This document shows, piece after piece, positions 1 through 35,764 of a DNA stretch of 35,764 nucleotides. Numbering within the stretch: the stretch's first letter is position 1; the number at the start of each line of letters is the position of its first letter. A program made the position numbers and the translations under genes. The stretch is from Pseudobacteriovorax antillogorgiicola (lineage in GTDB: Bacteria > Bdellovibrionota_B > Oligoflexia > Oligoflexales > CAIYRB01): contig CAMAXT010000020.1 of assembly GCA_945862295.1 (NCBI GenBank), positions 1 to 35,764 of the forward strand, read 5' to 3'. The notes below the pieces were generated by a model. That model saw nothing but the letters and a program-made list of their open reading frames with translations, was not told the origin of the DNA and ran no database searches.

Positions 1-2555
1 TAGAGCTGACGTCTCCGCAGTTGTTTCTTGTCGATTCAGGATCGGTGCGGATTACGCAATCAGGCTCTTCCAGCGAGATTTCGACATTGCTAACCGAAGG
101 TGCTTGGTTCGGCGGTGTGTCTATGGAAGCACCTCATATATATCCCTACACTTGCACTATCGTTGAACCCGCGAAAATTCGAACTCTTGATCTCACCCGA
201 GAAATCACAAGTGAATTTGAACGCCTCCAACTTGTCGAGTCACTACATGATGAGCCTTGGATTCAATTCACTAATAAAAATGGAACCACAGATAACACAA
301 TTTCGCCGCAGCCAGGAATCCGATTGGGTTTGCCTGATTTGATTAAACTCGGAGTAAAATTCAATCCAGAGGATCTGCATTTTAGTTCCTCAGATCATGG
401 TTCTATTGTCGCTTCCATAAAGAACGTCGCAGAAATTCATCGGACTCCCTATAACCGCCATAATATCTCCGTCGAAGCGGGCCAATTTCCGATACTATCT
501 CCGCTAAAGGTAGCAACGATTCTTGAAGCCTACGGACTGGTTGGAATGGCATTGAAGACTAAGTTCGAAGATCTTGCCCGCCAGGAAATGCCTTTGCTGA
601 CAGTTTACGGAAGCAGGTACGTAGCAGTCCTGAATGCGACTAAAAATTATGTAATCATTGCCGATCCCTGTGTTGGATTCGTGCTTGTTGACAAATTAGA
701 TTTCGAAAGTAGGTGGAATGGTCAGGTCATAGAAGTTCAACCTGATGAACTTGCTACTATTCGCGTTAACACAACGAGCGATGAGGGAAAACCAGAGTCA
801 GAATTGCTCAAAGGTTTAATGAGAAAAACTCGGCAAGCTATCGTTCGAGTAGCTTTAAAACAAAAAAGCATGCTGACAAATATTGTCGTACTAAACATCA
901 TCTTGTTGCTGATTGGAGCGATTGGCCCGAAGATTACGGAAAAAATCGTCGATGATGTCCTGTCTCTACGGGACTGGAATGCAGTGGTAACTCTCACTGT
1001 CGCGACGGTTCTAGTCATGTTTACCACTTTAATAATATCGGTTCTTCAGACGGCAGCGAGGATTGAATACACGCACCGATTGAATCAAAGAATTTTCGAT
1101 CTATTCTATCGCCACTATTTACGAATAAAAACTTCTGATCACAGTAAAAATAGGGTTGGAGACTTTGGAGCACAGTTTTCGGAAATCAACACACTGAAAA
1201 GTTTCTTTACTACTGCACCCATACAAATTGGCATGCAATTAGCCTCAATCATTCTCTATAGTTTTCTTCTAATGCAGTATGATACCCAGCTCGCACTCAT
1301 GGCTTTCGGGCTTTTACCAATAATTGTTGCAATTCGTTTTGTCCACCTTGCCCGCGTCAAACAAAATTATGAAAAGCAATATGAAGTCGGCAAAGAAGGC
1401 GGCAGTCTTATCACTGAGGCTGTATCCGGAATCGCGACCATTAAAAGCCTAAATGCAGAAGACATCGTTCGAAAGAAACTGGAAAAAAATAACGTCGCCG
1501 GTGGAATATTAGAGCGTCAGGTGGAAATGGAAGGCGTCACCATAAATGGATTTGTAACGATTCTTACAACAGCAGTTTCAACAGCAGCTATGTGGATCAG
1601 CCTTAAATTAGCCAGTCGAGGAGAAATTAGTATCGGTGAAGTGGTTGCGATCAATGCTTATTTCGGTTCTCTTGCTGGACCTATTATTGGTTTAGCTGGG
1701 TTCTTCACTCAAATCGAACAGATTAAGGTTTCTTGGAAACGAGTCGCTGAAACTCTTGCTAAGCCACCGGGCGAGAGTGAGCTCAAGTCAGTCGCAAATC
1801 AATCGGTTATTCTTAAGGGAAAAATAAAAGTTGAAGGATTGTCATTTCGTTACGACGCTGATGCGCCATGGGTTCTTAAGGATATAGATTTTGTGATCTA
1901 TCCGGGCCAAACGGTTGCGATCGTCGGCAGAAGCGGCTGTGGCAAATCGACTTTGGCGAATATTATAGCCAACAATTTGACTGCTACGATTGGGCGGGTT
2001 TTCTTTGATGGATACGAATCAAATCAGTTAAGTGCATCGAGCAAAAGAAGTCAGATAGGAGTTGTTCTCCAAGAAAATGAGCTGTTTGAAGGTACTATTG
2101 CTGCCAACATCGCATATTCGGACGATGCCCCTTTAGATACTGATGTTGTACATGCAGCTGTCGGATCAGGCGCATCTGAGTTTATTGACGGCCTCCCTGG
2201 CCAATACAATTACTATCTCGGAGAAGGTGGTAATGGTCTTTCGGGGGGGCAGAGACAACGGGTTTCTATTGCTAGAACACTTTTCAAAAATCCACGAATT
2301 TTGATCATGGATGAAGCGACCTCAGCTCTAGACTCAGAATCAGAAAATCTTATTATGCGAAACATGAATCCCATTACTCGGGATAGAACCTCGCTGATTA
2401 TTGCGCACCGCTTGTCCACAATCAGACACGCAGACCGTATTCTGGTGATGAAAGATGGCGCGATTGTGGAAGATGGTTCGCACAGCACACTACTAGCAAA
2501 ACAGGGCTACTACTCAGAGCTGTTTGTTGACCAAATATCATCAGGAGTAGCATAA
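1..2555 (+). CDS. ABC exporter with cNMP-binding-like and degenerate C39 domains (5' truncated)
   Basis: Inner-membrane type I secretion/PCAT-like ABC exporter. The frame is open to the left edge (first full codon at base 3), so the start lies outside the window; the TTG at 21 is only the first possible internal start. Counting from that TTG: end of a cyclic-nucleotide-binding-like beta fold (about 1-80), a C39-like domain (about 95-250), a six-helix membrane domain (about 280-570) and a nucleotide-binding domain with Walker A GRSGCGKST (636-644), signature LSGGQ (740-744), Walker B ending MDE (763-765) and H-loop His796. The C39 domain has no catalytic Cys, and the position matching the catalytic His is Arg199; the Asp (Asp215, ADP) remains. 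It is therefore probably a non-cleaving substrate-binding domain, as known for HlyB. It is followed 3 nt later by a second exporter with an intact C39 domain, which suggests a heterodimer. Confidence 0.92.
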   Translation, partial: ELTSPQLFLVDSGSVRITQSGSSSEISTLLTEGAWFGGVSMEAPHIYPYTCTIVEPAKIRTLDLTREITSEFERLQLVESLHDEPWIQFTNKNGTTDNTISPQPGIRLGLPDLIKLGVKFNPEDLHFSSSDHGSIVASIKNVAEIHRTPYNRHNISVEAGQFPILSPLKVATILEAYGLVGMALKTKFEDLARQEMPLLTVYGSRYVAVLNATKNYVIIADPCVGFVLVDKLDFESRWNGQVIEVQPDELATIRVNTTSDEGKPESELLKGLMRKTRQAIVRVALKQKSMLTNIVVLNIILLLIGAIGPKITEKIVDDVLSLRDWNAVVTLTVATVLVMFTTLIISVLQTAARIEYTHRLNQRIFDLFYRHYLRIKTSDHSKNRVGDFGAQFSEINTLKSFFTTAPIQIGMQLASIILYSFLLMQYDTQLALMAFGLLPIIVAIRFVHLARVKQNYEKQYEVGKEGGSLITEAVSGIATIKSLNAEDIVRKKLEKNNVAGGILERQVEMEGVTINGFVTILTTAVSTAAMWISLKLASRGEISIGEVVAINAYFGSLAGPIIGLAGFFTQIEQIKVSWKRVAETLAKPPGESELKSVANQSVILKGKIKVEGLSFRYDADAPWVLKDIDFVIYPGQTVAIVGRSGCGKSTLANIIANNLTATIGRVFFDGYESNQLSASSKRSQIGVVLQENELFEGTIAANIAYSDDAPLDTDVVHAAVGSGASEFIDGLPGQYNYYLGEGGNGLSGGQRQRVSIARTLFKNPRILIMDEATSALDSESENLIMRNMNPITRDRTSLIIAHRLSTIRHADRILVMKDGAIVEDGSHSTLLAKQGYYSELFVDQISSGVA

Positions 2556-2558
2556 AAA

Positions 2559-5500
2559 ATGGAAGGATCGAAAGCTTTAGATTTGCAGGATGTTTCGCAA
2601 GACTTACTTGCTACGGAGTTTTTTTTAAAACTGCGTTCCAAATCGATCTTCACGTTTCTAAAGCTTAACGAAGCTAAAAAAATTCTGCAGAAGACAAAAG
2701 TCGAAACATATCTTCCAGGCCAGACTATTCGCCAAACATCCCCAAAGCAGGAACTGATACTTGTGGCCGCAGGAGCGGTAGCTGTTTGGGAAGATCAAAG
2801 CAGGGTTGGTCGGAACAGCCGGAAAGTGCGTGAAGTAACTGATGGTCAAACAATAGAATTGGATAGATTTCTAACCGGTGAGAATGAATGGGCAACGAAA
2901 TGGGTTGCGGAAACTGAATGCACTATTCTTCGAATAGGCTCGCAAGCTTTGCTCGCCTCTCTTTCCAAGACCCCCGATCTCCTTGAATACCTGACTATTA
3001 TTACGCAGAATCCGGAAATCCAGAAACTTAACCGTGATTTGAAGTTAGTCGGTGTTACGCAGGCCCAGGCACAAATCGTTGTTAGAAGCTTGTCGAAAAT
3101 GGAATCTGAGGATATCAAGTCGATTAATTTGAATTCCGGTGCGCTAGTTATCTCAATAGCCGGTGAATTAATTGTTCGTGGCCGCGTGGGCCAACACTTT
3201 CGCTCAATTGGCCACGCAGTCGGGGGAAGTTACCTATACATAGTAGAAAAAGATCATGACCTACAAATAGATCCTAGCCCCGGCGCACAGTTTTGGGTTT
3301 TAAAGAGAGAGCAATGGGAAAAATTCTCTTTCAAAGAACAATTCGAAAGCTTTCTTGATGACGTAGATACAGTAAATTCTGTTCTAAAGTCTTTTGACAA
3401 ACTTGCAACGAATGACGACAAGAGAAGCCGGACCAAGAATTATGAGCAATACGATGACGGAGAAGATCCGTCTTCATTTTTGTCCGACGATGAACAACCT
3501 ATTCCCTCAAAAAGAAAGATGAGAGGACTTAAGCAGCACGATGAAATGGACTGCGGTGCAGCGGTCATGGCGACAATTGCCAAATTCTATGGGAAGCATA
3601 TTGGCATCCCCCGGTTTCGCTCGCTCATACAAGTGACCCGCGAGGGCGCTACATTATTGGGACTAAAAAGAGGCGCGGACATCGTTGGATTCCGAACCTG
3701 TGGCATCATTGCCAAGCAATATAAATCTGTTTCGAAGTTAAAGCGTCCATTCATAGCGTTGATGCGGCGGCATTACATCGTCGTTTATCATGTCTCGAAA
3801 GAGTCGGTATCTGTGTTTGACCCCGCAATAGGTCCAAACACGATTACTTGGAAAGAATTTTTTAACGAATACAGCGGTAACTCCTTTTGCCTAATACCAA
3901 CAGAGGAATTTTACAAACAACCAGACTCCAAACCGTTTTATTGGAAATATTTTACGATATTTAAAGGATTTGGTCGGCAATGGGGCGCGATCAGCTTACT
4001 GGCGATCATTAGTTTTGTCGTTGGTCTGGGTATGCCGCTTATACAGCAATTTTTATTCGATACTGTGTTGCTGGACCGTGACTTCAATTCGATTGACCTT
4101 ATGGCAGCAGGATTGATGTCGATTGCGGTGTTTAGTCAGGTTCTAAGCTGGATGCAGTCCTATCTCACGACCCATTTCACATCAGCTGTAGATGTGAAAT
4201 TTACGTCCCTATTTCTGCAAAAAATAATGTCGTTGCCGATGGGCTACTATGCAGTGAGGCGCGTTGGAGATATTACGACCAGAATCGGTGAACTGAAGAA
4301 GATTCGCGCCTTTTTCAGTGCAAAACCCTTGCTTCTGTTTTTTAATTTCCTGTCGGTCTTCGTCTACGGTTCTGTTGTTGCGTTCTATAACATCTATATA
4401 TTTGCAGTTGCGTTGATCTTTATTCCTATTATGTCTGGTTTGGTAATCTGGATCACGCCTCGGTTAACGGAATTGCACGCAAAAAAATACCGAGCGCAAG
4501 CCCGATCGTCATCAACAGCTGTCGAGCAGATTCGCGGATTAGCGACATTGCAGTCACTCGGAGCGGAAACAGCAGCTCGCTGGAAGTGGATGACTAGAAT
4601 ACTTGAGACATTCGAGCTTGATCGTAAGATGGGATACCTTGGATCCAGCTTCAATGTAACAGCGGGACTTTTGAACCAGTCTATTTCATCTGTGATTCTT
4701 TTAATGGGTGTCTACTTTTACATTCAAAATGAACTTACTTTTGGTCAGGTCATGGCTCTTACAGCGCTTTCAACTCAAATGATATCACCTGCAGTTGCCT
4801 TGGTGAACGAATATGCCCAGTTTCACGAGATGGGTGTTAGTTTGGCACGCGTTGACGACGTGTTTACTGCTGCTCCAGAACGCTTGCAGGAAGTAACTAC
4901 TAAAGTTAGTCCCGATCACTTTCTCGGTGACATTGTTTTAGAAAAAGTTTCCTTCAAGTATGGAGGTGAACTTTCTGACAATGTTTTGAATAACATCAAT
5001 ATGACAATAGCTGCTGGTGAGACAATCGCATTAGTTGGTCGCAGTGGATCTGGGAAAACAACACTTGGTCATATGATTACCGGTCTTTATCAGCCTCTCC
5101 ACGGTACAATACGCTACGGCGGGATTGATCAAGCTCAGATTCCTCTTGGACAACTTCGAACAAGTGTTGGTGCCATAATTCAAGAAAACACTATTTTTAG
5201 CGGCACGATATTCGATAATGTAACTATGGGTGATCCCCAAGCTACCTATCAGAAAGCTGTCGATGCGGCAAAAAGAGCTGATTGTCTCGATTTCATACTA
5301 GAATTACCCAATGGTTTTCACACCGACCTTTCCGAAAACGGCGGAGGCCTATCGGGTGGGCAACGGCAGCGTCTAAACATTGCAAGAGCGCTATATCGCG
5401 ATCCACCTATTCTCGTTATGGACGAAGCGACTAGCGCACTTGATTCTTTGTCGGAGAAAGTTGTTATGCAAAATACCGGTCAAAGATCAGGAAAAACGAC

Positions 5501-5654
5501 AGTCATAATTGCGCACCGGCTCAATACTATTATCAACGCTGATCGAATATATGCTCTGGATCAAGGGGAAATAGTTGAGTTTGGAACGCATCATGATTTA
5601 ATGGCAAAACATGGTCTCTATTTCAAACTTTTCCGCAATCAGATGACGATGTAA
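2559..5654 (+). CDS. Peptidase-containing ABC transporter (C39 peptidase, cNMP-binding-like N-terminus)
   Basis: Bacteriocin/leader-peptide processing ABC exporter of 1031 residues. Two successive cyclic-nucleotide-binding-like folds occupy about 20-145 and 160-290, and a charged linker covers 290-325. The C39 peptidase domain (325-455) keeps the full catalytic set: oxyanion Gln326, Cys332 (DCGAA), His405 (RRHYIVVY) and Asp421 (FDPAIG). A membrane domain (about 470-770) precedes the ATPase: Walker A GRSGSGKTT (827-835), LSGGQ (931-935), MDE (954-956) and His986. C39 domains of this family cut leader peptides after a double-glycine motif during export, so a secreted peptide substrate is expected. 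None was found in the window. At about 1000 residues it is longer than classical PCATs (about 700) because of the N-terminal folds. An AGGAG at 2542-2546 lies 12 nt before the ATG, and translation is probably coupled to the upstream gene. Confidence 0.94.
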   Translation: MEGSKALDLQDVSQDLLATEFFLKLRSKSIFTFLKLNEAKKILQKTKVETYLPGQTIRQTSPKQELILVAAGAVAVWEDQSRVGRNSRKVREVTDGQTIELDRFLTGENEWATKWVAETECTILRIGSQALLASLSKTPDLLEYLTIITQNPEIQKLNRDLKLVGVTQAQAQIVVRSLSKMESEDIKSINLNSGALVISIAGELIVRGRVGQHFRSIGHAVGGSYLYIVEKDHDLQIDPSPGAQFWVLKREQWEKFSFKEQFESFLDDVDTVNSVLKSFDKLATNDDKRSRTKNYEQYDDGEDPSSFLSDDEQPIPSKRKMRGLKQHDEMDCGAAVMATIAKFYGKHIGIPRFRSLIQVTREGATLLGLKRGADIVGFRTCGIIAKQYKSVSKLKRPFIALMRRHYIVVYHVSKESVSVFDPAIGPNTITWKEFFNEYSGNSFCLIPTEEFYKQPDSKPFYWKYFTIFKGFGRQWGAISLLAIISFVVGLGMPLIQQFLFDTVLLDRDFNSIDLMAAGLMSIAVFSQVLSWMQSYLTTHFTSAVDVKFTSLFLQKIMSLPMGYYAVRRVGDITTRIGELKKIRAFFSAKPLLLFFNFLSVFVYGSVVAFYNIYIFAVALIFIPIMSGLVIWITPRLTELHAKKYRAQARSSSTAVEQIRGLATLQSLGAETAARWKWMTRILETFELDRKMGYLGSSFNVTAGLLNQSISSVILLMGVYFYIQNELTFGQVMALTALSTQMISPAVALVNEYAQFHEMGVSLARVDDVFTAAPERLQEVTTKVSPDHFLGDIVLEKVSFKYGGELSDNVLNNINMTIAAGETIALVGRSGSGKTTLGHMITGLYQPLHGTIRYGGIDQAQIPLGQLRTSVGAIIQENTIFSGTIFDNVTMGDPQATYQKAVDAAKRADCLDFILELPNGFHTDLSENGGGLSGGQRQRLNIARALYRDPPILVMDEATSALDSLSEKVVMQNTGQRSGKTTVIIAHRLNTIINADRIYALDQGEIVEFGTHHDLMAKHGLYFKLFRNQMTM

Positions 5655-5656
5655 AT

Positions 5657-7108
5657 ATGGAAAAATTTCTATTCACATGGATCACTACTATTTACCTTTT
5701 TACCGCGCCTTCGTTAGCGTCAGCTTCTGACTTCGATGCGTGGTTCAAACAGGTGTGGGTACCTATTCAGGCTAGTCCACAATACGAAGGCCTGGATTCC
5801 AGGATTAAATCTGCGAATTTTGAGTCCGAAGCAGCGCTTTTGCGATCGCCGTGGACGACGACCTCGACCCTTTCAATCGATGAAGCACGACCCATCGAAA
5901 CTGAAAATGAGACGAGGGAAGTTCGTACACATATATTTTCGAACGAACTAAAATATGTTTTCGATGCGGGCACATTGGCCTCAATGAATTTAGGTGTCAA
6001 CTATGTAGATGCAAAAAATCAGAAGAACCCCTTCGTACCAAATTCAGCGACAGACGCGAAATCGCGTGTCTATACAACATCTGCTAGTTTAAGCCATGAC
6101 ATTAATCGAGAAGGTAACCGCGGTTTTTCCAAGACTTCCAGATCAAGAAATCAGGACCTATCGCTTTCAAACAAATGGAATATCATCCAGGCAAAACTCG
6201 ACCTAGAATTGCAGATATTTCGGCAACTTCTTGATTATTACGTTGCTCGATGCAAGTTGGAACGACTAGAAGATTCCAAGGAGCTCGTAATATGGGTACT
6301 GAAACGAGGCGAGGCTCAGGTCAAAGCAAATCTCATCTCTCAGACAAATTTTCTCAGTTTTAAAGATTTGGAGACCTCGGTAGAACGACAGATTTCTGGT
6401 CAAATGTCTATTGTCGACGGCTATGTAGTTAATTTAGAAAGAAACGGTACAAAGTTTGTAAGTTCTCTATTAAAAGCTTCGGAAAAACATCGTTTTTTAT
6501 GCAGTTTCCCGTCGTCAAAGGACCCTTTCGCCGAAACAAAAAATTTGTTGAATGCGACCAAGATTGAAGGAACGGAGTTTCCTTCAGCAGTAAGTGCTGG
6601 CTACCGGAAACAGGCAACAGAAAAATCAGCAAAAATTCAACGACTAGAGTATAAACCCAGCGTTAGTCCGTTTGTCTCGGGCCAATGGAACAATAGTATC
6701 GATTCAGAAACAGAGACTGGGTCGGTGTCTCTAGGTGTTTCGTTCTCGTGGAATATTCCTGGACGGAAGGGCGATCTTTTGCAGCAGTCGACTCGCGAAG
6801 AACTCGAGTCCGCGACAAAAAGTTATTACTCCACTGTCGACCTGAACAATTCTATTATTGCGAATCTAAAGGCACGTTTAGTTGCTGCGGAAAGAACTTA
6901 TCAAGTGATTAAAAAGTCGGAAAGTTCGTCTGAGTTGCTTTTGACTGCACTCAAACAAGAACTAGCGATTGGAACAATAGATCCACTAAATTATGCCAGT
7001 GCCGCTTTAAATAAGATTTCAATTGAACAATCATCTTTGGAAGTTTGGTCAACTATCACCTCTCTCCATTTTGAAGTAGAGAGATATTCTCAAGCCTCTA
7101 AGCTTTGA
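5657..7108 (+). CDS. TolC-like outer-membrane efflux protein
   Basis: Outer-membrane channel of the TolC/OEP family, 483 residues, the usual size. A signal peptide is visible at 1-23 (hydrophobic core, then SLASA). The mature part has long, hydroxyl- and charge-rich helices with beta-strand stretches, for example SVSLGVSFSWNIP, arranged as two related halves. It starts 2 nt after the stop of the C39 exporter gene, so it is almost certainly in the same operon and supplies the outer-membrane exit. No HlyD-type adaptor gene lies in the window. The 3' end overlaps the convergent glycosyltransferase gene by 19 bp. The family call rests on architecture and context more than on a single motif. Confidence 0.85.
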   Translation: MEKFLFTWITTIYLFTAPSLASASDFDAWFKQVWVPIQASPQYEGLDSRIKSANFESEAALLRSPWTTTSTLSIDEARPIETENETREVRTHIFSNELKYVFDAGTLASMNLGVNYVDAKNQKNPFVPNSATDAKSRVYTTSASLSHDINREGNRGFSKTSRSRNQDLSLSNKWNIIQAKLDLELQIFRQLLDYYVARCKLERLEDSKELVIWVLKRGEAQVKANLISQTNFLSFKDLETSVERQISGQMSIVDGYVVNLERNGTKFVSSLLKASEKHRFLCSFPSSKDPFAETKNLLNATKIEGTEFPSAVSAGYRKQATEKSAKIQRLEYKPSVSPFVSGQWNNSIDSETETGSVSLGVSFSWNIPGRKGDLLQQSTREELESATKSYYSTVDLNNSIIANLKARLVAAERTYQVIKKSESSSELLLTALKQELAIGTIDPLNYASAALNKISIEQSSLEVWSTITSLHFEVERYSQASKL

Positions 7109-23076: not shown

Positions 23077-24603
23077 TTATTTACCGTTGATTTGCTTATA
23101 TGCCTGCGAGTAGCTGACTTTTAGCATTGAGATCAGAGCGGCTTGCGTTGTTCCAGTGAAATTACCGTTAACAAGTTGGATCGAACTTAAAAGATTAGTG
23201 ATCAATGAAGCGTTGGTGGTTGACTGGTTAATTAAGCCAAGAAGCGCTGAGAAATCTGGCAGACCGGCTGGAAGTGCTGGGACCGTAGGATTAGGTTGTT
23301 GTGGACTAACGCCGGAGATGCCGTTTAAGATTGCTTGGAGACCACCAACCGCTGCTGGACCGCCAACACCTAGGCCAGCAAGAGCTGCGATATTTGCAAA
23401 AGTAGCCACTGTAGGATTCGAAAGAATGCCACCAGCGAGAGATGTAATGTTACCGACCGCGCCTGCTGCACCAGTAGGTTTTTGGTTCGCCCCTGCTTGG
23501 GCTGCAAGGCCGACTGCTGCCAAGATTTTATCAAACTGTGGAAGATTGGTATTGCCTGCGCCTGCTGGAATGACAGCGATTGCTTGCGCAAGAAGTGTGT
23601 TGATATCTAATGGACCGACTTGAGTGATGCCTGGGATCAATTGGCCAAGGTTACCAATTTGGTTTAGACCAGGAAGATTTGCGAGGCCGTTCGGCAGATT
23701 AGCGATTCCGGGAATGACCGGAGCTGGAGACTGCGGATTAGTTGTCGCCGAATTCGCTGGTGTTGGATTTGCAGTGCCGGCGACGGCAGTACCGTCACCA
23801 AGAACGCTTTTTAAGATAGCTGGCGCGTCTTGAATGGCAGTACCTCTAGCGACGCGGCTGACTGTGAAGCCAGTGATTTCATTTGTTGATGAAGCAAACA
23901 TCAAATCTTTGCGGCTTTCGACGTGGTCTAGACCAAATGAATGACCAGCTTCGTGCGAAATAGTTTCAGCGATGATCGTGTTGCTGTTAGTGCCTTTTGT
24001 AAATGCGAAGCCGATATCGTTGCGGTTTGAGTTGCCTTGATCAAATGGAGCAACACCCAGGACGCCGCCACCGCCAACGCAACCGAGGTCGCTGTAGGAG
24101 CCGCCAACGTGAATTGTTGTGAAATCGCCAGTGGCTGGGCGTTCTCCGGTAACTTTTAGAAGTGCACCGACATTATTGTAGTGAGCTTGTACTGAGTCTA
24201 GGATCGTCTGTTTATCGGCCGGACTTAACTGCGGTGCTGCAATGACAGAACTTTGTTTGCATGGAATGAAGGACTGGGTTTTGCTAAAACCTTTGATAAC
24301 GGTGGCGCCGTCAAAGTTAACAAAAAGAATTTGCTCTGCGCCGGCCAAGCTAAAGTCTTTTTTGTCAGCATTGCCAACGGTCTCTGCAAAGAGAGTATCG
24401 TAATACTCTTGTGGTGGAACAACCACGTGGTCATACTCTACGTCTTCAGTTGATTCTTCTTCAGGAGCAGTTGCGTCGCCACTAGGTTTCTTTTTCTCTA
24501 CGCCTTTTACTTCTGGGCTTGAACCGCAAGAGCTTACGATGAAGCTAAGGGTAAGCACTGAAGCTGTCTGAGCGAAGGAACCGTATTTTTTAAAACCCAG
24601 CAT
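23077..24603 (-). CDS. Metzincin (matrixin-like) metalloprotease lipoprotein
   Basis: Predicted surface or periplasmic lipoprotein protease, 508 residues. The signal peptide ends in lipobox IVSSC with Cys26. A charged spacer follows (KKKPSGDATAPEEE). The catalytic domain at about 90-245 has the zinc motif HEAGHSFGLDH (217-227), exactly HExxHxxGxxH, with Met235 in DLMFAS as Met-turn candidate. The C-terminal half (about 270-490) is low-complexity, rich in Pro, Asn, Gly and Ala with many LPGLxxLxxLIPG-like segments and no recognised domain; it may be a stalk or wall-associated region. AGGAGA lies just before the ATG. It is a single-gene unit with a shared terminator. The substrate is unknown. 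Confidence 0.88.
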   Translation of the reverse strand: MLGFKKYGSFAQTASVLTLSFIVSSCGSSPEVKGVEKKKPSGDATAPEEESTEDVEYDHVVVPPQEYYDTLFAETVGNADKKDFSLAGAEQILFVNFDGATVIKGFSKTQSFIPCKQSSVIAAPQLSPADKQTILDSVQAHYNNVGALLKVTGERPATGDFTTIHVGGSYSDLGCVGGGGVLGVAPFDQGNSNRNDIGFAFTKGTNSNTIIAETISHEAGHSFGLDHVESRKDLMFASSTNEITGFTVSRVARGTAIQDAPAILKSVLGDGTAVAGTANPTPANSATTNPQSPAPVIPGIANLPNGLANLPGLNQIGNLGQLIPGITQVGPLDINTLLAQAIAVIPAGAGNTNLPQFDKILAAVGLAAQAGANQKPTGAAGAVGNITSLAGGILSNPTVATFANIAALAGLGVGGPAAVGGLQAILNGISGVSPQQPNPTVPALPAGLPDFSALLGLINQSTTNASLITNLLSSIQLVNGNFTGTTQAALISMLKVSYSQAYKQINGK

Positions 24604-29600: not shown

Positions 29601-30528
29601 TCTAAAAGTTGCGCCATCAACTACAATTGCTCCTGGTACTTCTGCTGTGCAAGCGTCGGCCGCTGAAAAGGAAGTTGACGTCGAAAGTATCGATCTTTCT
29701 GGCGTTGATGCGCGCAAAACGGGCTTAAACACCTCTGTAAATAAATATCTCGCCAAGCAGAGTAATACTGCCCAGAAAGATGCGAATAAGATCGCTATGG
29801 TTGACTACGGTGCTGTTCGGCCGTATTTCCCGGATCGTCGTCCACTTTCAATTCAAAGAATTCTTGCGCGAAATTTGGAGTTCACCCGAATGGAGTTTGA
29901 TATTGTACTCAAACAAAATTGGTTTGGTTTGAGTCAATTTGTCATGAACTTTCTCGGTGGTAAGATTCAAGGTGATTTACAGCTTTCATTTGACCCTCTC
30001 CCGCGCGCGCTAAAAACAGCCGTGCATATGACACGACTAGACACCCGAAAAATTCTTGACCGCTTTCCAGATATAAAAGGTAAATCTGGTGGATGGAATG
30101 TTTTCGGGAGTAACCCATACATCGACGGTACCATCCATCTTGATGTTGATATTCCGTCAAAAGATTTCTCGGGTGGCATTGAGATTACGAGCATTGGTAA
30201 AGAGCAGATGAAGATGATGCTCTACTATGTGGATCCTTATGAGAAGAACGAAAACATCGCCGATATTCGCAAAGCATTGAGCTTGGGTGAAGTCCGCAAT
30301 GTCTCCATACCTTTCAACAACGGCGAGATTGGTATGGATGTGGACGTCCGTCTACTAAGTGCGGTGCCTATTCCAACGCCAAAACTGTCAAGATTTCCAG
30401 CAAATCAGATTCTGGAAAATTTCGTTGACCTTAGTAAGGTCAATATGCGGCCCGAAGATGATGTGCCGGTAGAAGCAATACCGCCGGTAGCGACGACTGA
30501 ACCACCAAAGACAGAGGCGACCCAATGA
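26683..30528 (+). CDS. AsmA-like / YdbH-like envelope protein
   Basis: Very large inner-membrane-anchored periplasmic protein, 1281 residues. A charged cytoplasmic N-terminus with a short internal repeat (ELISDAADLISDAAAAV, about 60-77) leads to one membrane helix (about 85-114). The AsmA-type start follows at once: VELQTGGKLDIGAVKFDPATGILISNVEFYAP. The rest is repeated amphipathic beta strands, as in AsmA, TamB and YdbH proteins, which form lipid-conducting bridges between membranes. The next gene overlaps by ATGA and encodes a YdbL-like DUF1318 lipoprotein; in E. coli, ydbH-ynbE-ydbL form one operon for phospholipid transport, which supports a YdbH-like role. It is longer than E. coli YdbH (about 880). 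The specific YdbH assignment is inferred from context. Confidence 0.8.
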   Translation: MEEKSHDKKNSLQPESEVPTRAKPRWLSGFFRRKNKSNKSLHKEAEAVSANSEEQSDVAELISDAADLISDAAAAVPEVIKKNRWVLLLLFRVFFYGFCALVALLLVAYTCIKIFVKPDDLKRIIKENVELQTGGKLDIGAVKFDPATGILISNVEFYAPEPGDARGMLEGGNIIPIPLANFEALNIIYSVPKMLAAKININAMQLVEPQVHLKMVDGVWNFQGIIDYRNRKFPPEAAPIEEESTGSAIDKFYLISPAVIYMPIQILAQNIGIKNLKLDMIEESKGKIAKIIVTNGLSFDIGAFWHKKTSNFWFSVLSLFDSPFELDMKEAKKDEEGNVVGDLEQTLLLSTALVLRAELSDFANIKVDFANRLTNLTTPIAGYQDIGNFMKVRAKVADTLKMVDIETLEVDFADALSYSLNGKIEIDSFELKAITLKLVQKFNLDIENAAVLATPFIKGIKGDGSISFDKFKIDGVIEPEKLTNFDKGFALPYVSGVVWLENIWADIPESGFSMQPISGDVSLAAGPALNGTGSQADIAMNINVPKFNLEQKLKFGSVSAGVENLAMNSTIRALWPEMLVPVLKMNVQAERVVAKGTNIAPVDVPLFFDLDAEGGKDLSRISANLSAELTDLAEFSLNLNCSDVCQRFRVSTQSRLESFEKLHSIIFPLGASLNLTEFMPTRMSGSLDFQFAARGTIPDPLTTPVPELLKKLDARFNSQVNLNKLSAQVPFFNTNIKGFDNRIAINGSHNQQKIDITQKIDSLTLTLENKETKKSVPVELNKYQIVSEITNEVTEPLDLVRIKEIMNTSIELDIYFAKLSAEGLLPMPIRELQLYIEGSQSKLVDITVDEITLKIPNLGLEALVKAESTLGPDYMPTKAKVDIKANVNHNGSQILPDGVKTSGGLSLELVVETPDLKNVSIVGETKFDRFYITLPGATEADTIIVEDIRGQIPFKQVINIPDTLALVERLTAALKVAPSTTIAPGTSAVQASAAEKEVDVESIDLSGVDARKTGLNTSVNKYLAKQSNTAQKDANKIAMVDYGAVRPYFPDRRPLSIQRILARNLEFTRMEFDIVLKQNWFGLSQFVMNFLGGKIQGDLQLSFDPLPRALKTAVHMTRLDTRKILDRFPDIKGKSGGWNVFGSNPYIDGTIHLDVDIPSKDFSGGIEITSIGKEQMKMMLYYVDPYEKNENIADIRKALSLGEVRNVSIPFNNGEIGMDVDVRLLSAVPIPTPKLSRFPANQILENFVDLSKVNMRPEDDVPVEAIPPVATTEPPKTEATQ

Positions 30529-31076
30529 CAATAATACATCGCAAGACATCGCCGATGATGTTCATCTGCATGATCCTTATCCTGCAGGGCTGCGCTTTCA
30601 ATTTTGAGCTAACATCTCAGCGTACCGCCCTTGAAAATCAAGTGATGGGTGCTTACAAAGAACTTGAAGACGAACTTGTTCTTTCAGCGGCTGCCAGAGG
30701 ATCGGGCACGGTCGGAACAGCTAACAAACCTGCAGTCATAGCTGGTCAAAATCAAATGTATAATATCGACGAAATACAAGAATTAAAGAACGCCGGGCTC
30801 TTTGGCGAAGGTGTTGACGGCTATATCAAAAAGATAAACCGAAAAGATCCTGCTGCAAGCGTCCCGAAAGTCCTTCTCGATAACATCGATGCGCTGTTTC
30901 AAGCGGAAAATCGTGACCGGGAAGTGATCTGGCATCACATCATCGAAGAAAATAAAAATCTTTCCAATAGTGATCTCCCAAATATTCGCCGTACCTATGC
31001 TAAGGTTATGCAGGAGAAATCGCTGCAGGGACATTGGTATCAAGATGAGTCAGGTGTCTGGGTTCAGAAAAATTAG
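30525..31076 (+). CDS. YdbL-like DUF1318 lipoprotein
   Basis: Small lipoprotein of 183 residues. A signal peptide ends in LILQGC, with Cys23 as the likely lipidated residue. The DUF1318 pattern follows: IQELKNAGLFGEGVDGYIKKI, then VIWHHIIEENKNLSNSDLPNIRRTYAKVMQEKSL and a terminal GHWYQDESGVWVQK, close to YdbL's closing G.W..K motif. In E. coli, YdbL is a soluble periplasmic partner modulating the YdbH-YnbE bridge; here the lipobox suggests membrane attachment, perhaps combining the roles of YnbE and YdbL. It overlaps the AsmA/YdbH-like gene by 4 bp and ends 23 bp before the TolB-TPR-CHAT gene. Confidence 0.85.
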   Translation: MTIIHRKTSPMMFICMILILQGCAFNFELTSQRTALENQVMGAYKELEDELVLSAAARGSGTVGTANKPAVIAGQNQMYNIDEIQELKNAGLFGEGVDGYIKKINRKDPAASVPKVLLDNIDALFQAENRDREVIWHHIIEENKNLSNSDLPNIRRTYAKVMQEKSLQGHWYQDESGVWVQKN

Positions 31077-31099: not shown

Positions 31100-34000
31100 A
31101 TGAGACTGCACCATTCAATTTTGACCACCGCTCTATTGGTTTCCTGTTCGGGAAGCCAAATGCTATTCTTTTCGGAGCAAATAACCCCTGAATCCGAACT
31201 TTATAAAATCCATATTCCCGAACAAGTTACAGCTGGCAACGAAAGTAACTTTGCACCCGATCTGTCTACTGACGGTAAAATCGTCATTTATACATCCGAC
31301 CGAAAAGGCAATAAAGATATCTGGCAAAAGGCTGCTGGTGGCGGATTCGGTTATCAACTAACAAAACATTCTGCGGATGATTTTTCTCCTGTCCTTTCAC
31401 CTGATGGTGATGAAGTCGCCTTTGTTTCAAGGCGAGAGGATGCTGCTGGCGATATCACTATTATGGATATTGGCTTTACTTTTAGCCTTCCAGGAAAAAA
31501 CAAAGAGAAGCCGGTTGAGTCGATCGCTTCAAATACAACAGAGGATTCTTCACCAGCTTGGTTTCCCAAAGGTGATAAGATCGTTTTCGCATCGAGAAAA
31601 CCTGGGGAGACTTCGTCTGTTCTGATGTTTGCAGAACTATCAGACCGCAAAGCTCAGCCACTTTCTGATATTCGAGGTGAGCAGCCCAGTGTTTCGCCGG
31701 ATGGAAAATTTGTAGCCTATGTTCGTTCCGGGTCTATATATGTTTACGATATAGACTCCGACAAGAATGAGCGTTTAACCGAAAGTGGGATCGTGCAAGA
31801 CGGCCATCCGCGTTTTAGTAGTGATGGCAAGACTTTGGTGTTCGTTCGTTATAGCGATGACACGAATAAAGACGGAGTATTTAATGCAGATGACAGCGCT
31901 TCCGTTTGGACGCTCGATTTGGCAAAACACAGAAGTCAAAAGAATAAGAATAATTTCGAGATTGAGCCGTTAACATCGTCGGCCGTTCCAGCGCTCTATC
32001 CGCAGATTAGAGCGCCTTTTCTATATGTTGCACTCAGCACAGTTGAAGGCTTAGATATCTTCCGTTATCCTCAGTATGGACAGGTCCAACTCGGCCCAGA
32101 CAAGGCGAAGTTCGAAGCTCTGTACGCAAAAACAGCTGATCCTGATGATGAAATATTTCTACTTAGAAAAATGCAGCACCTGCTCTTCAACTCGGGCGAT
32201 CACTCCAGCTTAATTATTTTTGCTGTTAGGGAGATGGAAGCTCATTTGGAGAGAGGAAAAAATCTTGAGCTAAGCTGGTTGGCTGAGAAATTAAACTTAA
32301 ACTATCCCGAAGAATCCAATGTCGCGGTCATCTCGGAAACCCTGCAAATTGAGGCCGAGCTTGCTCCACTGATGTTTCCAGCATTTCAAGGTAACTTAGC
32401 CCCAGCGCGCTTACGTAACTTACAAACGCTCTACCAGCGCTCTATTGGTCTTGCCGGTAGATTAAAGGCAGACAAATTACTTTTTTACCGGGCAAATGCC
32501 GAGATTCTTCTTATCCAAGCGAAGCTGAAGGCTTCAATGCGAGAGTTTTTTGAGGCAAGTAAGATCCTTGAAAGTATTTCACTCGCATTCCCTGCTGAGA
32601 AAAGAACAATTGCTAAGGCCCACCTCTATGCTGGAGCTATTGCACCGGTAGTTACCGGTATCGACGCCGCGATTGTTATCTACCGTGACATCATTCAAAA
32701 TTTTGGCGAGCAATCTGATCTCGTTCAACTGGCAGTTGACCGGGCAGTAGAGCTGGTTGCGTCCTCAGAGAATCCAATTGAGGCCTTACAGAAATTAAAG
32801 ACTGATTCTGTCAGTCTGCCGATTCTTGCCTCTAGTGCCCATTTGCGAATCGCTGAGATCTTTCGAACAAAAAATCTCGAATCGGTTTACGCAAACGAGT
32901 TGAGGCAAATTGTTGAGCAATACCCCAATGCTGAGACAATTACGCTCCGTGCCGCTGATGCGCTATCGAGACTTGAAGAAGGTAACGACCGCTATGACGA
33001 TGCCGAAAGCATGCTTAAAACATTGGTCGACAACACAGGTGGCAAATCTGCTGATTTCGCCAAGGGTGCGCAACGAGTATATTTTGATTTTCTTCTACGT
33101 CTCGCTGAATTGAACATGAAAGACCGAGCTTTTGAAGCGGCCGTCGATATTTATGCGCGTGTTATTAAACAAGATCCAATTGAAATCAATGCCCACCGCG
33201 GGTTGATTGATGCGCACTACCGTAAAGGTACTTTGGAAAGCATCGGGGCTTACTACGAGAATCAGTATGACGATAATTCTAGTAGCGCCGAGTGGACCTA
33301 CTTTTGGTCTTACCTTCTTACCTACAAGATTGACACAGCCAAAGGTGTCCGAGATAAGATTGCTGCAATTGACGATGCTATAAGTGTCGCCGAAGAATCT
33401 CGCGTCATAAATGCGCAGGTTTTGCAGATTCATCAGACTCTTGGTTGGCTATATTTGCAAAAAGGTTACTGGCTAGGAAAGTACCACGATTCCGGTTCTG
33501 TTCTGGCGGAAATGCGAAGTAGCTTTGGGATCACCCGCTCTTTCTTCGGGTCTCCGGAACCTAATTGGTTAGAGCTCGGTATCGAATCATTTCAAGCAGC
33601 GTACTATTTAAGTAAGCCTGATTCTATAGAGCGTGCAGGGATTGCAAGAAACCTTGCTCAAACCTACTTTGAACTCAAAAACTTTCAGAAGGCTCTAACC
33701 TATTACAGCCAACGTATCAAACTTCTATCGATTGTTCCCATTCGTGAGCCTGAGGTCGAAGCCCTTTTGTTTCGCAATGCTGGTAGATCAGCCTTTCAGA
33801 TCGAAGAACTTGAACTTGCAGAGAATCTGCAACGTAACGCGCTACTAGCTTGGGAAAAACTCGACGATAAAGACATGATTAAGTACTCAATCGACGCTTT
33901 GGCATTGACTCTGCGCGAGAGGAAAAATTACAACGAGGCATACCTACTCTATGACCGCCTGCGTAAACTACACGCGTCAATGAAAGACCGCTTCAATGAG

Positions 34001-35764
34001 ATCGCGGCGGTCACCAACATGGGATACTGCGCATTCGAACTCAACCGCCTCGACGGATCACTGGCACTATTTGATGAAGCTGAGAAACTCCTGGCGGAAG
34101 CGGAAAGTTCAGGTGTCAAAGATACTGCTGCCGCCTCTGGAGCAATCCAGATTGATTTAGGTGGCCAGGGTTCATCAGCCAAAGGCTTCAATGTCTTTGA
34201 TCGCAAAAACCTGCTGCTCACCTTTAAAGGTAAGATCTTCGAAAAGTGGAACCGTCATGACATGGTTTATGATCAGTACCTCGCGAAGCTTAAACTTTTG
34301 AAAGACGAGCGAACATTCCAGATCAAAGAGAATGATAAAGATGACAAATTCCTAGCAGAAGAGGTCTCTGTCGCGGCAAATAACTTAGGTGAACTTGCCG
34401 TTCGGAATGGTCGGATGTTTCTAGCCGCGGAACACTTTAAAGAAGCGGTGGCATTCGCTGAATTCTCTCGCCCTGAAGGTCAGGAGGGTATGAGCAATCA
34501 GGAAGCACTTAATTACGTCAACTACCTGAAGATCCAACTTCGCAAATCTTCGATAGGGCTGCTCCCTCCAGCGGAACTGAAGATTCTTACTCAAGAGATT
34601 GATGCCCGTACCGCGGAGTTACAAGTCCGTTTTGATGCTGGGGACAAGTCTGTAGCTCGCTTTATTTCCCAACTGGTTTCAGTTGGCAATCAGATGCGAT
34701 TAGGTACCAGTGGTCTTGCGCCTAAGGCGCAATTGACTGCTGATAATGTCAAAAATATGCTCGCTGTTAGTAGCACCACTGATCCCGCAGGAAAGCAAAG
34801 CCGCAGCATGATGTTGGCCTTTAAAAACCTACCCGATGGATTGGAATCAGATGTTTCAACTCCGGCAAAGAGTGCGTACGAAGCTTTTAAAGACGAAGCT
34901 CTCAAAATTCCTTCACTAGCGTGGAAATTTCATGCGATGGGTAACGACTTCATTAAAGCCTACGACGTAGTTAAACTCTACATCGCTGGAGGTGGCGTCC
35001 TCGCATCAGCCGCTGACCGGCTTCTATTGCGCGTTGTTTTTGAAAAATCGTTCGATCAAGCAGGAAACCTAGAATCAGAACAGGGTAGTTTGCAACTTAG
35101 AGGCTACCTGCTGACTAAGTATCAAGAACTCGCGAATCGTACATTTGGAGCCACAAAGGTTGTTGAAGGAAAATCGGTCTTAGAACTTAGTCCTCGGATA
35201 AAAGCACTTCTTGATTTAAAGCCGACGGATGATTTAAAGGCCTCGTTATCAGGCGCAGGCGTGGTTAGCATGCACCGGATGATTAATGGAAATATCCTCG
35301 TATCTTACCAGTCCAGTAAATCATCCTTTTTCAAGATAGTAACCCTTAAAAACAGCACAAAACTGAATTTAGAGAACTATCAAAAAGTACTTGCAGACGC
35401 CGGTGTTCTAAAAAGTCTAGCTGATGATGGTGTCGGGGAACTCTACATTGTGCCCTCGGGTGAACTTTACAACGTTCAATGGGATCAAGTCGCAACTGAC
35501 AAAGGTAAGCTGAGCAGTCAGTATAATATCGCCTATCTGCCGGCAGTTGATTTTCTCCCTGCTCTCTACAAAAGACGCAATGTAAATAAACATTGGATCA
35601 GTCATGTTAAGTCAAAACTCAATCCAGTTGAGTTTAAAACAAGTTTAGGCAACCGCGACTATGAGGGATTCACTGACGAGCAGCCGGCAGATCTAGTTGC
35701 ACTTCGCAAAGCCGAAGTCCTGCATTTTGATACGCCTTTGATGCTAAATACAGTTGAAGCAATC
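31100..35764 (+). CDS. Giant lipoprotein: TolB-like propeller, TPR-like repeats, CHAT domain (3' truncated)
   Basis: Open frame of 1555 codons without a stop, running off the right edge. A short signal peptide ends in lipobox LVSC (Cys16). Residues about 45-330 form a TolB/PD40-type propeller (NFAPDLSTDGKIVIYTSDRKG, FSPVLSPDGDEVAFVSRR, SPAWFPKGDKIVFASR, QPSVSPDGKFVAYVR). Helical TPR-like repeats occupy about 370-1180 (for example AFEAAVDIYARVIKQDPIEINAHRG, ALTYYSQRIKLL). From about 1360 a CHAT domain begins: GELYIVPSGELYNVQWDQV, then YNIAYLPAVDFL and AEVLHFDTPL (1538-1547). CHAT is a caspase-like peptidase fold. The usual family motif is LHFATHG; here the second His is Pro1546, so the protease may be inactive. 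The Cys motif would lie beyond the edge. It is third in the AsmA/YdbH-DUF1318 operon (23-bp gap), with a weak ribosome-binding site. Confidence 0.85.
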   Translation, partial: MRLHHSILTTALLVSCSGSQMLFFSEQITPESELYKIHIPEQVTAGNESNFAPDLSTDGKIVIYTSDRKGNKDIWQKAAGGGFGYQLTKHSADDFSPVLSPDGDEVAFVSRREDAAGDITIMDIGFTFSLPGKNKEKPVESIASNTTEDSSPAWFPKGDKIVFASRKPGETSSVLMFAELSDRKAQPLSDIRGEQPSVSPDGKFVAYVRSGSIYVYDIDSDKNERLTESGIVQDGHPRFSSDGKTLVFVRYSDDTNKDGVFNADDSASVWTLDLAKHRSQKNKNNFEIEPLTSSAVPALYPQIRAPFLYVALSTVEGLDIFRYPQYGQVQLGPDKAKFEALYAKTADPDDEIFLLRKMQHLLFNSGDHSSLIIFAVREMEAHLERGKNLELSWLAEKLNLNYPEESNVAVISETLQIEAELAPLMFPAFQGNLAPARLRNLQTLYQRSIGLAGRLKADKLLFYRANAEILLIQAKLKASMREFFEASKILESISLAFPAEKRTIAKAHLYAGAIAPVVTGIDAAIVIYRDIIQNFGEQSDLVQLAVDRAVELVASSENPIEALQKLKTDSVSLPILASSAHLRIAEIFRTKNLESVYANELRQIVEQYPNAETITLRAADALSRLEEGNDRYDDAESMLKTLVDNTGGKSADFAKGAQRVYFDFLLRLAELNMKDRAFEAAVDIYARVIKQDPIEINAHRGLIDAHYRKGTLESIGAYYENQYDDNSSSAEWTYFWSYLLTYKIDTAKGVRDKIAAIDDAISVAEESRVINAQVLQIHQTLGWLYLQKGYWLGKYHDSGSVLAEMRSSFGITRSFFGSPEPNWLELGIESFQAAYYLSKPDSIERAGIARNLAQTYFELKNFQKALTYYSQRIKLLSIVPIREPEVEALLFRNAGRSAFQIEELELAENLQRNALLAWEKLDDKDMIKYSIDALALTLRERKNYNEAYLLYDRLRKLHASMKDRFNEIAAVTNMGYCAFELNRLDGSLALFDEAEKLLAEAESSGVKDTAAASGAIQIDLGGQGSSAKGFNVFDRKNLLLTFKGKIFEKWNRHDMVYDQYLAKLKLLKDERTFQIKENDKDDKFLAEEVSVAANNLGELAVRNGRMFLAAEHFKEAVAFAEFSRPEGQEGMSNQEALNYVNYLKIQLRKSSIGLLPPAELKILTQEIDARTAELQVRFDAGDKSVARFISQLVSVGNQMRLGTSGLAPKAQLTADNVKNMLAVSSTTDPAGKQSRSMMLAFKNLPDGLESDVSTPAKSAYEAFKDEALKIPSLAWKFHAMGNDFIKAYDVVKLYIAGGGVLASAADRLLLRVVFEKSFDQAGNLESEQGSLQLRGYLLTKYQELANRTFGATKVVEGKSVLELSPRIKALLDLKPTDDLKASLSGAGVVSMHRMINGNILVSYQSSKSSFFKIVTLKNSTKLNLENYQKVLADAGVLKSLADDGVGELYIVPSGELYNVQWDQVATDKGKLSSQYNIAYLPAVDFLPALYKRRNVNKHWISHVKSKLNPVEFKTSLGNRDYEGFTDEQPADLVALRKAEVLHFDTPLMLNTVEAI

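Follow-up and report, generated by a model that had tools for sequence, protein, structure and literature searches.

The stretch of DNA analyzed here (the window, 35,764 nucleotides) is the entire contig C20 of a 3.05-Mb genome present in 157 contigs with a completeness of 78%, and its right edge is the end of that contig. The rightmost gene encodes a chain of 1,555 residues that is still open at this edge. Given that the window is one whole contig, the gene is cut at the right edge, and the window would carry the first 60% of a protein of ∼2,650 residues. Full-length relatives (2,150-2,880 residues) are composed of a signal peptide, a propeller, TPRs, a dead CHAT module, further TPRs and a C-terminal CHAT domain. 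The features of the gene and of its two upstream neighbors are listed in Table 1.

Table 1. Features of the CHAT gene and of the genes directly upstream in the window
Feature	Position	Strand	Evidence and remarks
AsmA-superfamily-like protein, 1,281 residues	26683..30528	+	PF05170, 26.6 bits (cut-off 29.8); PF05359, 25.7 bits (cut-off 50); structural model
DUF1318 (PF07027) lipoprotein	30525..31076	+	PF07027, 43.8 bits (cut-off 27)
5' part (1,555 codons) of the propeller-TPR-pseudoCHAT-TPR-CHAT gene	31100..35764	+	Gene cut by contig end; relatives of 2,150-2,880 residues; probable rest at G000:C109:6434-9631 (-)
Signal peptide with lipobox LLVSC	31100..31147	+	Cys16 putatively lipidated; Cys invariant in 8 sequences of alignment A1
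TolB-like (PD40) beta-propeller, approximately residues 41-335	31220..32104	+	PF07676, 99.9 bits; TIGR02800, 96.2 bits
TPR/alpha-solenoid, approximately residues 560-1280	32777..34939	+	PF13424, 44 bits at residues 827-875; weaker TPR matches at 623-704
Internal dead CHAT module, first half only, from approximately residue 1375	35222..35764	+	hhalign; model of L048 and fold search
Pro1546 codon, at the position of the catalytic His	35735..35737	+	LHFDTPL, residues 1541-1547; alignment with relatives

The CHAT gene is the third in a conserved operon, preceded by the genes for the AsmA-like protein and the DUF1318 lipoprotein. The DUF1318 gene overlaps the AsmA-like gene by 4 bp, and the CHAT gene starts 23 bp after it. 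Both neighbors lie directly upstream at 14 of 14 loci fetched from the same class, the window apart, for which upstream sequence was present. Here, L039, at a contig edge, was left out of the 15 fetched loci, and L048, L050, L051, L052 and L054, which repeat contigs already counted, were not counted again; the DUF1318 match at L046 is weak (E = 0.001). Given that 14 other loci of the class share the gene order, a contig artifact was rejected. Within the class, PF07027 occurs in 13 of 56 genomes, as one copy each, and in 13 of 13 cases it lies just upstream of the CHAT gene. The CHAT gene itself was counted in 14 genomes (G006 by a fragment), and only G042, the DUF1318 protein of which is too divergent, has no Pfam match to PF07027; G007, which holds the very divergent L046, fell below the threshold and was excluded from the genomes counted with the gene.

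The same linkage was observed in a second phylum (that of G059). PF07027 is present there in 58 of 82 genomes, again as one copy each. It occurs together with the CHAT-type protein in 54 genomes and within 7 kb of it in 44, with the DUF1318 gene elsewhere or on another contig in ten (Fisher p = 1e-12 for co-occurrence, uncorrected for kinship). Among 40 loci fetched from this phylum, a same-strand DUF1318 gene precedes the CHAT gene in 32 of the 36 that have at least 900 bp of upstream sequence, and an AsmA-like gene lies upstream in 23 of the 33 that have at least 4.8 kb. The first of these counts drops L175, L176, L182 and L185 (<900 bp upstream), and the second also drops L170, L171 and L186. 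At L181, L184 and L187, the DUF1318 gene is found 1.6-1.9 kb upstream with one gene between. At exceptional loci in this phylum, the CHAT gene neighbors other genes, among them M1 peptidases. At two loci (L172:2738-5737 and L183:3150-6242), an M1-family peptidase gene precedes DUF1318 where the AsmA-like gene would otherwise stand. The Nitrospinota-titled L053 showed no DUF1318 or AsmA gene in ∼9.7 kb of upstream sequence.

Both Pfam scores of the AsmA-like protein lie below the respective cut-offs, and its character was assessed by modeling. An N-terminal transmembrane helix is predicted, and the AlphaFold2 model (pLDDT 74.5, pTM 0.50) contains two N-terminal helices and ∼50 long beta-strands. 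No PDB match under E 1e-3 was obtained for this model with Foldseek; similarity to the N-terminal fragment of Vps13 is weak (Foldseek probability 0.77, VIA Z 8.8), and beta-barrels score a similar Z. The protein lacks a match to PF11739 (YdbH), and comparison by hhalign with a single YdbH sequence from Escherichia coli gave E = 0.15. The window's genome (78% complete) yielded no TamB (PF04357). In E. coli, YdbL may act as a partner to YdbH or YnbE. YdbL is itself a PF07027 protein (108.9 bits) encoded with ydbH and ynbE, and the DUF1318 family matches it by hhalign with E = 1.5e-6. According to PMC11784454, YnbE and YdbH act together in the transport of lipids to the outer membrane. The resemblance to the YdbH-YnbE-YdbL system is that AsmA-type and DUF1318 proteins are encoded side by side. 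By contrast with that system, the window AsmA-like protein is not of the PF11739 type, the DUF1318 protein is a lipoprotein in its own right, no PF13617 (YnbE-type small lipoprotein) match was detected in the scanned proteins of the window cassette, and a giant CHAT protein is added. Given the type of fold and the DUF1318 partner, the AsmA-like protein may act as a lipid bridge.

Several other genes are present in the window. Positions 3-7108 (+) encode a pair of adjacent ABC exporters that carry C39 peptidase-like domains and, at each N-terminus, a weak cyclic-nucleotide-binding match; a TolC-like outer-membrane efflux protein follows. Between 7090 and 15514, glycosyltransferase, UDP-glycosyltransferase, radical SAM, TPR-TylF and FkbM-type methyltransferase genes form a small cluster around an E1 dehydrogenase gene. 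A possible exported metalloprotease is encoded at 23077-24603 (-), for which the archaemetzincin/fragilysin-type matches are weak (17-19 bits, below cut-offs).

The N-terminus of the CHAT-gene product (MRLHHSILTTALLVSC) contains the lipobox LLVSC, the Cys16 of which is invariant across the 8 full-length proteins of alignment A1. A hydrophobic N-terminal stretch is found in every member from the window's class with a readable N-terminus. Several lipoboxes within the class are non-standard, and most members from the second phylum have a signal peptide without a lipobox. Since the signal peptide of most second-phylum relatives is an ordinary one, lipidation appears to be a lineage trait and export the general feature. 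A first-pass annotation of this DNA had described an envelope lipoprotein. The window protein would be lipid-anchored in the envelope, on the periplasmic side.

The lipobox, TolB-like propeller and TPRs named in that annotation were all recovered (LLVSC with Cys16, PD40 repeats at 99.9 bits and Pfam TPR matches); the limits of the TPR region were taken from alignments. The likeness to TolB resides in the PD40 propeller repeats. Unlike TolB, the window propeller forms a single domain within a giant chain, and identification of the protein as TolB was rejected, the TIGR02800 equivalog score of 96.2 bits being far below the cut-off of 343.15.

The visible part of the protein gave no match to PF12770 (CHAT) with Pfam at E ≤ 0.01, and the window piece scored only 3.7 bits against an HMM built from C-terminal CHATs. 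With the same HMM, internal copies from distant relatives scored 144 (L057), 132 (L058), 125 (L056) and 50 bits (L053). Comparison by hhalign connected the internal copies of close relatives both to C-terminal CHATs (E = 2e-10) and to the distant internal copies (E = 9e-15), which in turn matched the active C-terminal CHAT (E = 2e-47). The window region is termed CHAT-like because of these links through full-length relatives and because of the fold of a relative's domain. Alignment with CHAT families upholds the earlier assignment by way of relatives, at E = 2e-10, but not by a direct Pfam call.

The replacement of the catalytic His by Pro1546 in LHFDTPL, as first read, was confirmed by the sequence and by alignment. 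An altered His is common to the window and six aligned relatives (for example, LLHIDLPL and LLHIELPL). In distant internal copies, the catalytic HlAsHGeF is replaced by HFERWIMA or HLERWSLL, and the position of TLSACetGL is without Cys. The internal His column could be read in 37 relatives; a His is present in 2 (L179 and L184) and the Cys in 0 of the 37. Given that no relative with a readable motif has the catalytic Cys, the altered His is a trait of long standing in the family. The prospect of a catalytic Cys further downstream in the internal copy finds no counterpart in these relatives.

The fold of the internal module was examined with the corresponding copy from L048. The AlphaFold2 model (386 residues, 10 sequences) had a pLDDT of 80.3 and a pTM of 0.86, and Foldseek returned 13 PDB matches under E 1e-3, all of them Csx29/TPR-CHAT chains. 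Alignment with VIA-align gave Z scores of 23.0 for Csx29 (322 residues, 3.2 Å), 22.6 for human separase 7nj1 (323 residues, 3.3 Å) and 20.0 for DdvA 8rot (304 residues, 4.3 Å). Features shared with separase are the fold seen in the internal module (Z 22.6) and the placement of helical repeats ahead of a caspase-like protease; unlike separase, the window family is bacterial and exported and has two full modules with TPRs between, and the match of L048 to PF03568 (separase, peptidase C50) is 19.4 bits versus a cut-off of 27.8, with none listed for the window protein. The protease region of Csx29 combines an active CHAT2 with a pseudo-caspase CHAT1 (PMC10028731). Given this two-part region and the span of the L048 match (Csx29 residues 303-750), a whole module is repeated in this family, and the window carries a dead copy. 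On this model, the internal module has a CHAT/separase fold that extends across the full protease region of Csx29 and separase. When the PDB was searched by sequence with a profile of the internal modules, no match was obtained at E ≤ 1, so the evidence for the fold rests on the model. In a phylogenetic tree, 24 internal modules fall on one side of a branch (support 60/22, recovered in 58% of bootstrap trees, with long branches), and a single ancient duplication is the likely, rather than the demonstrated, origin of the internal modules. The description of the visible CHAT-like domain as a pseudo-protease on an exported chain holds, and a sensor or scaffold role for this module is reasonable.

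To locate the rest of the gene, the window's own genome was searched with the C-terminal part of a relative. This search led to contig C109 (9,632 bases), which contains an open reading frame of 1,065 residues, open at the contig end, that is 39% identical to residues 1585-2611 of relative L033. The fragment carries a canonical CHAT domain after TPRs (PF12770, 202.6 bits), which is the sole PF12770 match within the assembly. Its dyad is intact, with His934 in HIATHGEF and Cys977 in LSACETG (fragment numbering). C20 and C109 share no overlap, and from the alignment to L033 a gap of ∼25 residues (roughly 75 bases) probably separates them. We infer, with good support, that the two contigs are physically adjacent. 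On this comparison of sequences, C109 is probably the continuation of the window CHAT gene. Assuming that it is, the C-terminal module of the window protein would be of the TPR-CHAT type with a His-Cys dyad; the module apparently is active and is a predicted protease.

The visible part of the window fits a protein that ends in a single CHAT domain with an altered His, the whole chain being a pseudo-protease sensor or scaffold, as the first-pass annotation had it. This reading was rejected and is hardly tenable. The CHAT-like domain does not end the chain, since relatives continue for ∼1,000 residues and the probable rest lies on C109, and a second CHAT with an intact dyad is encountered ∼1,000 residues on, in C109 and in most relatives, including those of full length. 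Domain order, the state of both dyads and gene linkage are given directly by the sequence, and the architecture of the protein and the operon, taken jointly, can be regarded as close to certain.

Some match to the protein was found in 50 of 56 searched genomes (the window's own and those of relatives), mostly to the propeller only. The 15 loci fetched within the class include 13 that align past the propeller (open reading frames of 1,729-2,747 residues, 11 of them uncut); L046 (2,150 residues) matches in the propeller only, and L047 comprises the N-terminal 415 residues only. The window's phylum holds 58 searched genomes, all in one class, of which 14 gave a match to the TPR profile. The family was also detected in Oligoflexales and Pseudobacteriovorax, the window's order, and in a Nitrospinota-titled and three other MAGs. 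In the second phylum the protein is present in 57 of 82 genomes at a threshold of E < 1e-25, with most open reading frames encoding 1,646-2,880 residues. The family thus spans at least two phyla and is near-core in the second. Literature searches found no biochemical or genetic data on any family member, no paper joining "CHAT domain" with AsmA and none relevant on DUF1318; among the matches listed, papers on TolB, propeller and TPR made no mention of "CHAT domain."

Some genomes of the window's class encode a propeller-TPR relative that has no CHAT domain (1,027-1,258 residues). It follows an AsmA-like gene in 9 of 10 fetched loci, L136 being the one without. The AsmA-like proteins of the CHAT-bearing and CHAT-less groups are homologous (hhalign E = 2e-39). 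The CHAT-less cassette (L127-L135) often includes a lipoprotein of ∼90 residues with the pattern C.P...IDR.T..E, for which no Pfam match was found and comparison with YnbE by hhalign was not significant; a match to the N-terminus of the DUF1318 lipoprotein (hhalign E = 0.0044) is suggestive only. Among the matches listed from the 56-genome search, the two types never occur in one genome, and PF07027 is absent from the searched genomes with the CHAT-less type. Given this exclusivity and the absence of PF07027, CHAT and DUF1318 appear to come and go together on a shared base of AsmA and propeller-TPR proteins.

Among the relatives from the class that were scanned with Pfam, four have a canonical C-terminal CHAT domain (206.6, 191.0, 207.6 and 221.4 bits), and L042 has one that scores lower (48.5 bits). 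Of 59 proteins, 40 have an intact C-terminal dyad and 8 have lost it; the dyad is unreadable in 2 (L046 and L200) and cut off in 9. The eight that have lost it retain the domain (L040, L041 and L042; L188, L194, L196, L197 and L199) and are apparently, as judged from their motifs, fully non-catalytic lineages in two phyla. The loss of the C-terminal dyad from 8 of 48 readable relatives, spread over two phyla, means that catalysis is not a constant requirement. Because these eight members have lost both dyads, the main rival to a regulatory protease is a non-catalytic envelope scaffold, in which both CHAT modules would only bind peptides or partners and hold a bridge complex together, the intact dyad being incidental or rarely used. 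The dead internal module in all readable relatives, the eight dyad-less members that keep the domain and the CHAT-less propeller-TPR relatives, which also follow AsmA-like genes, are consistent with such a scaffold. However, the C-terminal His and Cys are invariant in 8 proteins of alignment A1 and of A4, and, of the 48 readable proteins, 40 have kept the dyad, in two phyla or more, which would be unexpected without selection for catalysis; a pure scaffold is accordingly considered unlikely, albeit a serious contender.

TPR-CHAT proteins act in type III-E CRISPR (PMC10028731 and PMC9729208), and the C109 part of the protein has a weak PADLOC match to BovA (29.8 bits) and a TPR match (32.2 bits). 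An anti-phage or cell-death effector could be envisaged, in which a sensor on the same chain would release the C-terminal protease, as in Csx29 and other defense CHATs. Csx29 and its Craspase assembly share with the window family the fold of the internal module (Z 23.0) and the combination of TPR and CHAT; the C-terminal module is PF12770, and a profile of relatives matches Csx29 by sequence. In contrast to Csx29, the window family is exported, has an N-terminal propeller and an AsmA/DUF1318 operon, and duplicates the whole module with the first copy dead, whereas Csx29 has one module. The export signal and the operon with envelope genes argue against defense, as does a single near-core copy found across 57 of a phylum's 82 genomes, a pattern unlike that of patchy defense islands. 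With PADLOC, neither the visible CHAT part nor the DUF1318 gene was matched, and the AsmA-like gene had no more than a weak match to Aga1 (14.5 bits). A role in defense is thus judged very improbable.

DdvA (8rot) offers a further comparison, since it is an envelope-linked protein with a CHAT-type fold. The internal module matches it with Z 20.0, and the C-terminal CHAT profile finds the DdvA chain by sequence (E = 0.0012). An envelope stress sensor that signals inward, like this transmembrane anti-sigma factor, and for which lipid transport would not be the target, might be proposed on these grounds. DdvA differs, however, in being a membrane anti-sigma factor by its entry title, and we know of no tandem module in it. 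Moreover, no sigma or anti-sigma gene was present among the Pfam-scanned genes of the window, and the conserved partners are AsmA-like and DUF1318 proteins. Such a sensor is improbable here.

An envelope regulator of an AsmA-type lipid bridge is the best explanation of the observations as a whole, and we put its probability at about even. The mechanism, which would comprise docking, a dead platform and cleavage by the C-terminal module, is put forward tentatively. Here, the AsmA-like protein would span the periplasm as a lipid bridge, and the propeller and TPRs would dock the CHAT protein on this bridge or on its DUF1318 partner. The dead CHAT module may serve as a binding platform, and the C-terminal module would cleave a partner upon an envelope signal; the first substrates to consider would be the DUF1318 lipoprotein or the end of the bridge at the outer membrane. 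The CHAT protein would then be a regulatory protease of intermembrane lipid traffic. A more specific and rather doubtful version is a protease-gated lipid bridge, in which the dead module, as a receptor, would read the bridge via DUF1318, and the live module would cut a partner so that the bridge is opened, closed or recycled.

Most of what is known about CHAT and separase proteases comes from cytoplasmic defense and from the segregation of chromosomes. The operon linkage described here suggests that, in some bacteria, a protease-like machine may control the supply of lipid to the outer membrane, and it predicts a function for DUF1318 as the partner, substrate or gate of the protease. If this is true, the protease-gated bridge would be ancient, with a presence in two phyla or more, in one of which it is near-core.
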